NCBI GenBank assembly: GCA_951802195.1
Contig: OX637622.1
Coordinates: forward strand, 558,001-622,000
DNA from: Tausonia pullulans
Taxonomy: Eukaryota > Basidiomycota > Tremellomycetes > Cystofilobasidiales > Mrakiaceae
DNA: 64,000 nucleotides
Direction: 5' to 3'
This document shows positions 2,698 through 64,000 of the stretch, in pieces. Every line of letters starts with the position of its first letter. Position 1 is the stretch's first letter. The notes beneath the pieces are model-generated. The model saw only the letters and a list, made by a program, of their open reading frames with translations. It was not told the DNA's origin and ran no database searches. Made by a program: the position numbers and the translations under genes.

Positions 2698-5600
2698 ATG
2701 TCCGACCCGCCCCCGTCCACGACGACCGCTTCGGGCCCCGTCCCCGTTCCGGCCGCCGTGCAGTCCGAGAAGGCTCCCACCCATGTCCCTGCGCCTGTCG
2801 CAGACGCCTCTCAAAAAGTCGAGACTGTTGAGGGGTTCGTTGTCTTCCTTGCTTTCTCTTCCTTTCTGTCGCCATGCTCTCGCTCTTCTCTTCATCTGTC
2901 TTCTCAGTTGGGGGGTAGAGAGAAAGATAATGGGCGCTGTGGAAGTCGTGCTGACCCGAGGCTTCTCATTTCCGGCAGGTCGTTCACGCTCATGATCGAC
3001 AACTACGACTCTTTCTCGTACAACCTCTACCAATACCTCGAGCAGCTCGGGGCTAACGTTCGTGTCGTCCGCAATGACAAGATCACTATCGAGGAGATTC
3101 AGGTGAGTGGCCGTGCTCTGGTGGCCGGATAAAGGGGGGCAGGGCGTCAACAGCCGAGGTGGAGGTGCGAGTCGCCGGAACACGTCCTCTCATCGGCATA
3201 GCATATAGACACCTTAGGTTGGGGCATTGGATATGTTCATTAACCAACCATAAGGTTGTCCTGAGCGTGGTGGCCTCTTCACCCTTCGCCGCCCGTGGTT
3301 CCAACGCTAGCCCCACGCCTCAATCACAGCTCAGCGTAGTTGTCTTCTGCTGAAATCACTTCCTTCCCAGACGTACTTTGCTGCCGGCATCCTCAAGAAC
3401 ATTGTCATCTCTCCCGGGCCCGGCCATCCTCGGACAGACTCTGGCGTCAGCCGAGATGCGATTATGTGGGGTCTCGGCAAGGTCCGTCTGACTCGGACAG
3501 CGGCGCGCGTTTGCACGCGTTCTCCCCACTATGACTCACGCATCTGTTGATCCCTCCCCCAGCTCCCCATTCTTGGCATCTGCATGGGTCTCGAGTGTCT
3601 CGTCGACCTGCTTGGAGGAGAGGTAGGTCGTGCCTCATCTCCCCTTTTCGCCAAACCTCCCACCCCCAGGCTGAGAGACGCCCCTCTAGATCGGTTTTGC
3701 TGGCGAGATCGTTCACGGAAAGACCTCGGCCATCGTGCACGACAACCGGGGTCTCTTCCACGGCCTTCCTCAGGACATTCAGTCGACCCGCTACCACTCG
3801 CTTTCGGCCGATATCGTCTCGCTACCCGCTGAGCTCCAAGTGACAGCGACAACCAAGGACTCAGGCGTCGTCATGGGCGTTCGCCACCGCAAATTCACAG
3901 CTGAGGCTGTTCAGTACCACCCCGAGTCGGTTCTCAGCGAGGGCGGCATGGAGCTCATGGGCAACTTCCTTAAATTCACAGGCGGTACCTGGGACCAGTG
4001 CCCGGGCTTCGGCCTCGGCGCATCCGAGGAGAGCGCTGCCGTCCCCCAGTCCGTCAAGGTCGTCAACGGCAAGGTTCACGAAGGCTCGGCTGCTGCTGCT
4101 ACTTCGTCATCGTCGTCGGCGACCGTTGCTGCGTCTGATCCCTCCAAGTCGGCGCTCCCGACAATCCTTACCCAGATCCACGCCCAGCGGCTGCTCGACG
4201 TTGCCCAAGCCGAATCGCACCTCTCGACGACGCCGTTCCAACTGCTCACCAACTTGAGCCTCCACCTCGCGCCTCCTCTTCTCCCTCTTGTCCCCCGGCT
4301 TCTCCAGACGGCGCCCCTCCCGGCGATCCTCGCTGAGGTCAAGCGAGCTTCGCCCTCCAAGGGCGCCATTGCTCCGACGACCAACGCCGCCTCCCAGGCG
4401 CTTCTCTATGCCCACGCTGGCGCCTCGGTCATTTCGGTCCTCACCGAGCCCAAGTGGTTCAAAGGTGGCCTCGCTGACATGCTCGCCGTCCGGACCGCGC
4501 TCGGGGAGATGCCGAATCGCCCTGCGGTCCTCCGCAAAGACTTCATTCTCTCGACGTACCAGATCGACGAAGCTCGCCTCTATGGTGCGGACACGGTTCT
4601 CCTCATCGTGGCCATGCTCGACCCGACGCTCCTTAAGGAGCTCTACTTCCACTCTGTGGGCCTCGGCATGGAGCCCCTCGTGGAGGTCAACAACGCCGAG
4701 GAGCTCGAGCGGGCCCTCGAGCTCGGAGCCAAGGTTATCGGCGTCAACAACCGAAACCTCCACGACTTTGAGGTTGACATGTCGACGACGAGCCGCGTCA
4801 ACGAGGCCCTCAGCCGGCAAGGTGCCTCGGTGGAGCGGCCCATCCTCATCGCCCTTAGTGGTATCACCAGCCGGGCGTCCGTTGAGGGCTACCTCAAGGA
4901 AGGCGTTCAGGGTCTCCTCATCGGAGAGTCGCTTATGCGCGCTGAGGACCCTAAGGCGTTCATCTGCGAGCTCCTTGACACTACGCCGGCTGGTGGTATC
5001 ACTCCGGCCATGCCCGCCGCCCCCCTCGTCAAGATCTGCGGCATCCAGTCGCTGACGGACGCGCAGACGGCCGTCTCGGCTGGGGCCGATCTTCTCGGAC
5101 TCATCTTTGTCTCCAAGTCGAAGCGCCAGATTCCGCTCGAAACGGCCTGGTCGATCGCTCAGTTCGTCCGACAGACCAGCTCGGCGGCCCCTCCTTCCTC
5201 TTTCCACCCGACCGTCGTCGCGAGCTCTTCGACATCGACGCCCAAGGGCTGGTTCGCCCACCACGCCTCGGTCCTCGCCCGCTCTCGCCGCCCGAGGCTC
5301 GTCGGTGTTTTCCAGAACCAGCCGCTCGAGGAGATCCTTCACGTTGTCGATGCCGTCGGACTTGACCTCGTCCAGCTGCACGGTTCCGAGCCCGCCGAGT
5401 GGGCCAACTTCATCCCCGTCCCTGTCATTCGGGTCCACCACGTCAGCCCGAGCTCGGGGCTCATTACCCCCGCAGACGTCGGTCGTCCGGGTCTGAACCA
5501 GTTCGTTCTCCTTGACGCTGGGTCCGGTAAGGGCACTGGAGACGGAGGGAAGGGGGAGGCGTTTGACTGGAAGGTCGCCCGGGATGTCGTCGAGGCCGGT

Positions 5601-5780
5601 GCCAATGAACGACTCCCGATCATCCTCGCTGGTGGCCTCAACGAGATCAACATCACTGAGGCTGTGCGTGTCGTGTCGCCGTGGTGCGTCGATGTGAGCA
5701 GTGGAGTTGAGGCGGTCGGAGGCGGGTCGAAGGACGCCGAGCGCTGCAAGCTCTTTGTCCAGCGGGCCAAGGGGCTGTAG
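2698..5780 (+). CDS. TRP1: Trifunctional tryptophan biosynthesis protein (TrpG-TrpC-TrpF)
   Basis: One polypeptide combines the glutamine amidotransferase subunit of anthranilate synthase, indole-3-glycerol-phosphate synthase and phosphoribosylanthranilate isomerase. Exons are 2698-2834, 2979-3102, 3371-3481, 3563-3622 and 3690-5780, giving 840 residues. The first domain shows [27 protein letters not shown], the nucleophile motif [10 protein letters not shown], and QYHPES of the catalytic triad. The second domain begins near [13 protein letters not shown] and contains [17 protein letters not shown] and GVNNRNL. The third begins at [13 protein letters not shown] and ends in the ILAGG and VDVSSGVE motifs. 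This domain order is the standard fungal one. An N-terminal tail of roughly 45 Pro/Ala/Ser-rich residues precedes the amidotransferase domain. All three active-site regions look intact. A Gcn4-type site lies upstream. Confidence 0.96.
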
Positions 5781-12523: not shown

Positions 12524-12532
12524 ATATATATG
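12524..12532 (+). promoter_or_regulatory. TATA-like element upstream of tRNA copy 2
   Basis: ATATATATG lies 46-54 nt before the first base of the second permuted tRNA gene, matching the spacing of a similar element before copy 1. Its role in Pol III initiation is inferred. Confidence 0.4.
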
Positions 12533-12577
12533 ATCAACGTGACGCCCACTTCAGTGTCCATCTTGATCTTTTCAGAC

Positions 12578-12655
12578 ACCCGAAGGTTTCCAGATCGAAA
12601 CTGGAGCCCGCAACTAAACTGCGGGCTGGCGCAATGGTAGCGTGTCGGGCTCATA
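12578..12655 (+). tRNA. Circularly permuted initiator tRNA-Met (CAT), copy 2
   Basis: Order on the plus strand: 3' half 12578-12612, 7-nt spacer ACTAAAC 12613-12619, 5' half 12620-12655. Within the 3' half are base 38 (12578), the anticodon-stem strand CCCGA (12579-12583), the variable loop (12584-12588), the T stem-loop (12589-12605) and the acceptor strand GCCCGCA (12606-12612). A73 is 12613. The 5' half has acceptor TGCGGGC (12620-12626), D arm (12629-12643), anticodon-stem strand TCGGG (12645-12649) and anticodon CAT (12652-12654). All stems pair fully, with one G:U in the D stem. T loop ATCGAAA and the G:C-rich anticodon stem mark an initiator. The 71 tRNA bases outside the spacer are identical to copy 1; the spacer differs at one base. 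No normal tRNA can be formed with sequence on either side. Confidence 0.86.
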
Positions 12656-12684
12656 TGAAGCTGGTCGAAGTTGGATGCGGGTTC

Positions 12685-12689
12685 TTTTT
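12685..12689 (+). terminator. Pol III T-run terminator of permuted tRNA copy 2
   Basis: TTTTT within TTCTTTTTGT lies 29 nt after the last base of the tRNA 5' half. The same string follows copy 1. It fits termination after the rearranged 5' half, leaving a short 3' trailer beyond the anticodon loop. Confidence 0.65.
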
Positions 12690-61971: not shown

Positions 61972-62277
61972 GGGCGGGCGAGAGCGACGATGGTCGTTGA
62001 CCTGGAACGAGTCAAAGGCTCCCCGTTCATTTCGAGCTTTCGGGGCCCTCGCCTTCCGACCGGCCAAGTCCGCTCCTCGCTCTCTGGGGCGTTGGGTCGG
62101 AGAGAAAGAAGGCGATTCCATAGGATTTTTCTTTGGTATACGGTGAGAGAACTAAGAGTACATACTTAGAAAGAGAATGAAAGGGAGAGAAAAAGAAAGA
62201 ACGAGGCGCTGCCCGTGAAGATATATGTGCCGCCGTGCCCCAGCAAGCACAACAGCGAACTCCTGCGATTCCTCCTC

Positions 62278-62338
62278 TTAGTCCGCGTACTGAAGCAGAA
62301 GGGAAAAGTCAGCCAGCTGCTTGTCGCCATATAATCGA

Positions 62339-62376
<38 letters not shown>

Positions 62377-64000
62377 ACCTTCATGACGACCCAAACGACA
62401 CCCCCTCCAAGCAGCCCCATGACCGCCAGCAGTGCGAGGATCATGCTCCCCAAGAGGTAGTAGTTCAGGTCCCCCTGCGACGCATCCTGAGCGAGTTGCT
62501 GAGTCGTCAGCGGTGGCAGACCCTTGGACACCCGCCACTCGGCGCGCTCGCGGGCCCGCTTGCGGAGAGCCTTGGCGGCGTCGGCGTCGGCCTTGGCGGA
62601 GGCGATCCGGAGACGAGCGTCGTTGGTCGATGTATCGAGAGTGGAAGTGGGGGCGCCGGGAGGGGTGTTGGGCGAGGGGGCGATGAGTTGGATGAAGGAG
62701 GGGTACTCTGGGGGAGCCAATGTCAGTGTGGTGTGAGTATCCAGTATGTATGGGAGACAGAGCATGCGACACTCACGGTGCTCGGTCCACTGCTCGATCT
62801 TCCCGCATGCGATGGAGATCTTGATGAACGAAGGGTCCGCTGGAACAGCCTTGGCGTGGATCTTGCGGGCGTAGTCGCGGAAGAGGTACGCGACGTCCCT
62901 CGGGTTGGTGCACTTCATGATGAGCTGGACGGCCTGACCCTTGCGGATCTTGATGTTGCGTCGGAAGACCTCCTTGTTCATGAAGCACAGCTCAAGCGTT
63001 GCGATCGCCATGACGGCGGGGATGGCGCAAAAGTTGAAGGCGCTCTGGTTCTTGAGGAGGCTGAGGTAGTCGAGCCCGTCGATGCAGTGACCGAGAGCGT
63101 CGACGACCATGGCCGAGAGGACCCAGAGTGCCTTGTCCTCGTTCTCCGGCCGAACGAGCTCCTTGAGTGAGGTGAACCCTCCGAACCTCTCAGACCCCCA
63201 GATCTCCCGAGGCCAGAAGGCGCGGCCGTCATCCGTGTCCTCGCGGATGTCGCGGAGAATGTTGGTCTTCTGGAGGAGGAGACCGAGCGAGTTGGAGAGG
63301 ACGAGCTGGTCGGCGAGCCAGGGCCGTTCCTTGCCCGTAGAGGAGAAGAGACCCGAGAGACCCTCGCCGACAAGACCAGCGACGTAGTGGCAGTAGAGCG
63401 AGAAGTCCTCCATCGTCGCCACCTCGGCGACGGGCTTCTCGGGCGTCGATCGGGCCGCGAAATCGGCCATGCCGTTGCCCATCTTGCGGGCGATGTCGGC
63501 AATGATCTTCTGGTTGCTGAAGGGGGTTGAGGGGGGGTTCGGGAGTGTATGTGTGTCAGTCAAGGGCCTACGGACACCTTCGGCTCGTCTGACGCCCTCG
63601 CACCACTCACTCGACGTTCAAGTTGTTGAACTCCTCAACGACGACCTCGAACCTGACGAGCAGCGCTCGGTCTTTCTCCTTCTCACCCGAGCCGTTAAAG
63701 TTCCATCCGGGCTGGTAGAGCTTCTCGTGGAACGACCGGAGGAGGGGGAGCTTGACGTCGTTCGGGAGCGACATGTCGTCCTCGATCGTGTCGAGGCCGC
63801 GGAGGACGAGGTAGAAGATGCAGATCTAGGAGACCACAAGAGCGGTCAGCTCATCGCGTCCCTCGCATCTGCGGCCGAGAGGGAGCAGTCGGGCGGGGCC
63901 GCCCTCCCAGCCAGCGACCGACAGAGAGCGCACTCACGCATCGTGCGAGATCCCCGTCCAGCTCCTTGATGACCGCCGCGAACGACCTCGAGGTCAAGTC
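62278..64000 (-). CDS. ERG9: Squalene synthase (farnesyl-diphosphate farnesyltransferase), 5' end beyond window
   Basis: It joins two farnesyl diphosphates into squalene, the first committed sterol step, on the ER membrane. In coding order: [20 protein letters not shown] with the first Asp-rich motif [18 protein letters not shown], the [13 protein letters not shown] motif, and [20 protein letters not shown], the second Asp-rich motif, with [10 protein letters not shown]. Then come [20 protein letters not shown] and, after an intron, a hydrophilic linker. The C-terminal anchor is [20 protein letters not shown]. The last exon encodes only YAD and the stop codon (62280-62278). The final intron contains a long CT tract. 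The N-terminal region lies right of the window; all parts visible are intact. Confidence 0.95.
62340..62371. repeat. GA repeat in the last intron of squalene synthase
   Basis: A run of about fifteen GA units on the plus strand, CT on the coding strand, sits just after the donor of the final intron. It contributes to a very pyrimidine-rich intron. A similar CT tract lies in introns of the neighbouring prephenate dehydratase gene (about 61663-61682 and 61819-61838). Confidence 0.8.

Follow-up and report, generated by a model that had tools for sequence, protein, structure and literature searches.

Circularly permuted initiator-type tRNA genes form a family of 14 copies in a fungal nuclear genome

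Positions 12578-12655 (78 nt) of the window, by which we mean the whole 64-kb stretch of DNA analyzed here, encode a tRNA-Met(CAT) in swapped order: tRNA positions 38-72 come first, followed by the spacer ACTAAAC and then by positions 1-37. This permuted arrangement is real. On present evidence, it is very likely that this locus and 13 others in the same genome are working type II circularly permuted genes, and that they are the only initiator-type cytoplasmic tRNA-Met genes of this fungus. The sequence evidence is that of functional genes, whose expression would yield a circular RNA and, from it, a joined tRNA.

The preliminary description had placed the 3′ half before the 5′ half, 7 nt apart, at exactly these coordinates, and had all four stems pairing once the halves are rejoined; both points are correct. 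The rejoined tRNA has stems of 7, 4, 5, and 5 base pairs, and all 21 of the 21 pairs are standard, with G10-U25 counted as a wobble. On the forward strand, the 3′ half (35 nt) occupies positions 12578-12612, the 7-nt intervening sequence ACTAAAC positions 12613-12619, and the 5′ half with its CAT anticodon (36 nt) positions 12620-12655. The first A of the intervening sequence is a possible discriminator base 73. A TATA box (12525-12530) starts 53 nt upstream of the 3′ half, and the leader (12548-12577), which would begin at the transcription start and has G at position -3 (12575), can pair with the trailer (12656-12689). The trailer ends in a T5 run (12685-12689) that is a possible Pol III terminator. 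A second permuted copy (copy 1) lies on the reverse strand of the window at 2189-2266, with its TATA-like box at 2316-2321, its 3′ half (positions 38-72) at 2232-2266, the intervening sequence ACTTAAC at 2225-2231, its 5′ half (positions 1-37) at 2189-2224, and a trailer at 2159-2188 that likewise ends in T5.

ARAGORN, and Rfam at its gathering cut-offs, reported nothing in the 64-kb window, a silence that is expected because the gene is permuted. Neither half had a match in 100 shuffled windows. To score the arrangement by a noncircular test, 11 of this genome's collinear tRNAs were rearranged into 3′-half-first order, with the initiator left out, and used to build a model (R3). R3 gives the two window copies 62.4 and 61.8 bits, and the higher-scoring match (E = 3e-19) falls exactly on 12578-12655. 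An earlier model, R2, recovers both window copies too, which it does by construction, having included the initiator. All 14 genome copies score between 56.1 and 62.4 bits with R3. The scan covered 48 partly overlapping stretches (208,529 bases, or 0.2 Mb of 23.9 Mb) picked so as to contain every one of the 14 copies; within them, the best other match reached 28.1 bits and was located in a collinear tRNA, and no other permuted isotype exceeded that value.

A genome search with the permuted 78-mer (23.86 Mb, 21 contigs) recovered 14 full-length copies on seven large contigs (1, 3, 6, 7, 9, 11, and 14), all with the 3′ half before the 5′ half and a short spacer between them. The family that emerges from this permuted-gene search, which the preliminary description had proposed, is larger than that description saw. 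The halves are identical in 13 of the 14 copies. The remaining copy, on contig 1, carries A52->G together with U62->C, such that the T-stem pair A52-U62 becomes G52-C62 and the change is compensated. Spacers are 6 nt (seven copies), 7 nt (four), 8 nt (one), or 9 nt (two) in length, and all of them start with AC. That the halves stay identical while the spacers between them differ speaks for selection acting on the mature tRNA.

Three pairs of copies share flanking sequence (L040/L041, L045/L046, and L047/L048), leaving 11 loci that were used in the tests described below; the number of independent loci may fairly be 10, given that the sequences upstream of L047 and L049 are ~72% alike over 74 nt. 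The downstream flanks of L044, L046, and L048 have a common repeat more than 300 nt away. Over the nearest 60 nt, median ungapped identity among the 91 pairs of copies is 0.28 upstream and 0.30 downstream. A SINE-like repeat was considered as a candidate and rejected, since unrelated loci have only the tRNA in common, duplicated flanks aside.

A different way to account for the swapped halves is that each site lies where one collinear tRNA gene of a tandem array ends and the next begins, or else is an assembly chimera. At the boundaries of a tandem array, a 5′ half does come shortly after a 3′ half, and the L039 leader contains a short stretch that resembles a 5′ half. However, the outer halves that such an array requires are missing within 600 nt on either side of all 14 copies, and a single misassembly is excluded by the 11 different flanks, which are spread over seven large contigs. 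We rejected this explanation on these grounds and regard its chance of being right as negligible. The stretch in the L039 leader (contig 3, ~624.8 kb) comprises ~16 nt directly before the 3′ half, TGGTTGAGCGTGTCGG, and resembles the end of the 5′ half. Only 1 of 1,000 shuffles gave as good a likeness, in what was one among 22 comparisons, and the stretch may have survived from an ancestor that was collinear or tandem.

Near-identical permuted copies also occur in inverted orientation ~9-12 kb apart on contig 14 (217.9 and 229.7 kb) and contig 6 (375.3 and 384.0 kb), and on contig 6 a cluster of collinear tRNAs is repeated in mirrored order (L029 and L030, at 687 and 709 kb). These arrangements suggest large inverted duplications.

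The preliminary description took the CAT anticodon, the T loop ATCGAAA, and the three G:C pairs of the anticodon stem as the marks of an initiator. All of these are present, and the T loop, which supplies A54 and A60, is found in 14 of 14 copies. For the yeast initiator, the accessible text of one report names the pair A1-U72 along with A20, A54, and A60 (PMC10602860). The fungal copies depart from yeast at two of these places, with U1:A72 and U20 in 14 of 14 copies and the A1:U72 pair and A20 absent. We therefore file the tRNA as initiator-type, and we infer its initiating role because it is the CAT tRNA that exists beside a separate elongator, a collinear tRNA-Met gene with a 10-nt intron that is also found in this genome.

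The flanks of the permuted genes differ from those of their collinear counterparts. At 8 of the 11 loci (11 of the 14 copies), the region from -61 to -51 relative to the 3′ half contains the start of a TATA-like hexamer; L039, L042, and L043 are without a clear TATA box. None of the 46 collinear genes, a sample in which a small number of isotypes (Trp, Asn, Lys, Glu, and Leu among them) are overrepresented, has such a box at that distance (Fisher P = 1e-7 vs. 8 of 11 loci), and the 45 distinct collinear flanks have no TATA at either -65 to -50 or -45 to -20. Both U6 genes that score over the Rfam cut-off have TATATA 31 nt upstream of the match. The TATA box is associated here with permutation, and permutation reverses the order of the A box and B box. 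A TFIIIC B-block domain was found in the genome, so TFIIIC is not evidently lost. At the other end of the genes, a run of at least four T residues starts 13-29 nt past each permuted 5′ half, whereas in 42 of the 46 collinear genes such a run occurs within 9 nt of the gene end. In all 14 copies, both halves and the spacer are free of T4 runs. The window copy L050 does have a T4 run at -9 in its leader, which lies within the predicted transcript.

The leader and trailer of each gene appear to have changed together. Pairing of each leader with its own trailer was compared with pairing to trailers swapped among the 11 loci, using 20 and 30 nt. Own trailers pair at -12.2 kcal/mol compared to -6.7 for those of other loci at 20 nt, and at -17.2 compared to -10.2 at 30 nt, and 0 of 20,000 swap permutations were as good as the own pairing. 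The effect survives removal of the paralogous L047 (0 of 200,000). At 20 nt, the own trailer is the best partner for 7 of the 11 leaders, with L052 being the weakest (rank 8 of 11). The 45 distinct flanks of collinear tRNAs show no such effect (-10.2 vs. -10.1; 6,984 of 20,000 permutations). Because the pairing is specific to the locus, pairing within one transcript is favored over pairing in trans. For 10 of the 11 precursors, the minimum-energy fold is the permuted cloverleaf, with 10-23 pairs between leader and trailer; in these 10 folds, 16 of the 21 tRNA pairs are formed and the T stem is slipped in register. The minimum-energy structure of L043 is not the permuted cloverleaf.

Candidate splicing marks also occur next to the 3′ half. 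All 11 loci have G at base -3, upstream of the 3′ half, for which chance is ~5e-7 given the base composition, and this G is able to pair with C32 in every one of them. Base -1 is C in 10 of 11 loci. A strict bulge-helix-bulge was sought in the leader and trailer columns and was not seen, with the conserved columns being -3 and -1 alone. Positions 32 and -3 are what we take to be the exact sites of the anticodon-intron pair. The bases at 32 and -3 are Watson–Crick partners in the collinear introns of Asp, Lys, elongator Met, Leu, and Pro (5 of 7 isotypes), form a wobble in Ser(CGA), and are unpaired in Ser(GCT), with intron boundaries in this comparison as assigned by ARAGORN. An anticodon-intron pair is described for eukaryotic pre-tRNAs in the accessible text of PMC3978253. 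Genes for tRNA-intron endonuclease, fungal tRNA ligase, and RNase P RNA are carried by the genome. On contig 6 (L063, 1-1535), a permuted copy begins at 345,176, ~390 bp downstream of the tRNA ligase ORF (end at 344,789) and on the same strand. The product of this adjoining gene would have to join the halves of the copy, and the proximity may be a coincidence.

These features are consistent with a pathway in which transcription by RNA polymerase III would begin ~25-30 nt past the TATA box and end in the T run. The leader and trailer of one transcript would then pair and, together with C32:G-3, would display the 37/38 junction for the splicing endonuclease, such that the paired leader and trailer would resemble an intron whose loop has been opened. 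Joining of position 37 to 38 by fungal tRNA ligase would close the RNA into a 77-80 nt circle, which RNase P and tRNase Z would open by cutting the 6-9 nt acceptor loop, and CCA addition would be the last step. One alternative order is that RNase P and tRNase Z cut first and that the two halves, kept attached to each other by the stems and the leader-trailer helix, are subsequently spliced like a split tRNA, with no circle formed. A leader-trailer helix as long as that predicted by the folds could hold two pieces together, but circles with retained spacer have been detected in C. merolae and green algae, according to the accessible text of PMC3978253, and we consider the split route unlikely. 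Processing through a circle was also proposed in the preliminary description. The 37/38 permutation, the leader-trailer pairing, G-3, the endonuclease and ligase genes, and the lack of a detected collinear initiator all fit that proposal, and the circle itself is what we infer from them.

A very different interpretation is that the permuted copies are inactive remnants and that a collinear initiator gene, so far undetected, supplies the tRNA. The preliminary description had named such a gene as a check on its proposal, and none was found using the rejoined tRNA, the anticodon arm, the D arm, or the Rfam tRNA model, whose scores cover 63 of 897 candidates. The rejoined 71-mer gave 28 half matches in the genome, which correspond to the same 14 copies; the longest match spans positions 1-40, and none spans both halves. 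An exact search of the genome for the initiator anticodon arm without interruption, GGGCTCATAACCC, found nothing. With one mismatch the arm occurs at 19 places, one of which is a permuted copy itself (L039, the same place as L070), and ARAGORN finds no tRNA-Met at the other 18. Nine places (L071-L076, L079, L084, and L085) that have similar sequence around TGGCTCATAACCC and no ARAGORN tRNA constitute a dispersed repeat family.

Exact matches to the initiator D arm TGGCGCANNGGNAGCG number 17: each of the 14 permuted copies contributes one, another is in a tRNA-Arg(TCT), and the remaining two lie where there is no tRNA. When 73 one-mismatch matches are included, the total is 90, compared to 95 for a reversed control pattern. 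A Neurospora initiator used as a genome query gave no match; because it missed even the permuted halves, this search has no weight. The reach of the collinear searches stops short of an intron-bearing initiator with a changed D arm, and the locus-by-locus reading of D arms covered the 17 exact matches, which leaves the 73 others, along with the Rfam candidates beyond the 63 scored, as places where a collinear gene might lie. Set against this are the absence of the uninterrupted anticodon arm and several features that would be unexpected in dead copies: identical halves in 13 of 14, a compensated base pair, coevolving leaders and trailers, an invariant G-3, and T runs. We therefore judge it very unlikely that the copies are remnants, and the reading of the 14 loci as working genes is retained.

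That the host is a fungus and the genome nuclear, as the preliminary description held, is supported by the spread of the copies over seven large contigs and by a TRP gene near copy 1 (3735-5780, forward strand), which encodes Pfam GATase, IGPS, and PRAI domains and is 73% identical to that of Mrakia frigida (Tremellomycetes, Cystofilobasidiales), its best named relative. This one gene points to a basidiomycete host close to Mrakia, which would probably belong to that order. A squalene/phytoene synthase domain is encoded on the reverse strand at 62166-63563, and the two genes frame the fungal origin of the window. A gapped initiator pattern with the T arm before the D arm was searched against collections of viral and genome contigs, neither of them a fungal collection, giving 1 match in the former and 12 in the latter. 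All were rejected as permuted initiators: the matches in L095 and L106 lie in ordinary tandem tRNA arrays, and the other 11 loci have no ARAGORN tRNA at the match. In the accessible parts of two Mrakia genome papers, tRNAs are counted with tRNAscan-SE and the initiator is unmentioned.

We think it reasonably likely that these genes gave up their internal A box/B box promoter in favor of a TATA promoter of the U6 type, multiplied to 14 loci, and retain a clamp made of a leader and trailer that coevolve, in an arrangement that goes with the unusual U1:A72 initiator and may characterize an entire clade around Mrakia. If the reading given here holds, the cell probably splices an RNA into a circle and cuts it again before protein synthesis can start. 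The persistence of permuted tRNA genes would become testable in a yeast-like group that offers 14 natural replicates of a permuted initiator, including which flanking pairs are needed, whether the cell can do without the circle, in what way Pol III transcribes a gene with its B box ahead of its A box, and whether splicing limits how much start tRNA is supplied. A practical consequence is that an essential tRNA can be wrongly listed as absent by tRNA scanners, given that neither ARAGORN nor the Rfam tRNA model reported anything here.

Among known systems, that of Cyanidioschyzon merolae was reportedly described by Soma et al. in 2007 as having swapped halves, TATA-like sequences upstream, T runs downstream, and a 37/38 junction in 6 of 11 genes, and its circular intermediate is said to have been shown. 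The swapped halves, the upstream TATA-like sequence, and the downstream T run are alike in the genes reported here. However, as far as the accessible text of PMC3978253 goes, TATA-like sequences in C. merolae precede permuted and nonpermuted genes alike, its junctions vary, and its permuted initiator has a 50/51 junction and a spacer of 74 nt. More broadly, the accessible parts of PMC3978253 and PMC12633428 place permuted tRNA genes in a few algae, a nucleomorph, and one archaeon. The preliminary description knew of no fungal case, and none was recognized in the accessible literature, judged by titles, abstract openings, and passages, mostly from outside subscription papers (including PMC8450103, PMC12633428, PMC9976931, PMC4090602, PMC12749792, and PMC5100859). 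Permuted initiator genes are, to that extent, new to fungi.

The archaeon Thermofilum pendens has permuted iMet and Tyr genes, and its iMet spacer of 7 nt is like those found here. Unlike the fungal genes, it has a 59/60 junction, an encoded CCA, an extra intron, and archaeal machinery (PMC3978253, accessible text). Other counterparts are the type II iMet(CAT) genes of Micromonas pusilla and Micromonas sp. RCC299, which, in the accessible portion of the same source, share the 37/38 junction and the 3′-half-first order, and whose leader and trailer the splicing machinery is likewise expected to remove (PMC3978253). In Micromonas, however, the spacers are 47 and 12 nt rather than 6-9 nt and several isotypes are permuted, whereas here the host is a fungus, there are 14 copies, only the initiator has been found permuted so far, and the TATA box is absent from the sampled collinear genes. 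Ordinary intron-containing pre-tRNAs of fungi share the 37/38 junction and, in 5 of the 7 intron-bearing isotypes compared from this genome, the 32/-3 pairing, but in the permuted genes a leader and a trailer replace one continuous intron and the halves stand in the opposite order. On the sequence evidence, the genes would work like known type II permuted tRNA genes, and the variation they add is a 14-copy, mostly TATA-bearing family in a genome whose sampled collinear genes are without the box.
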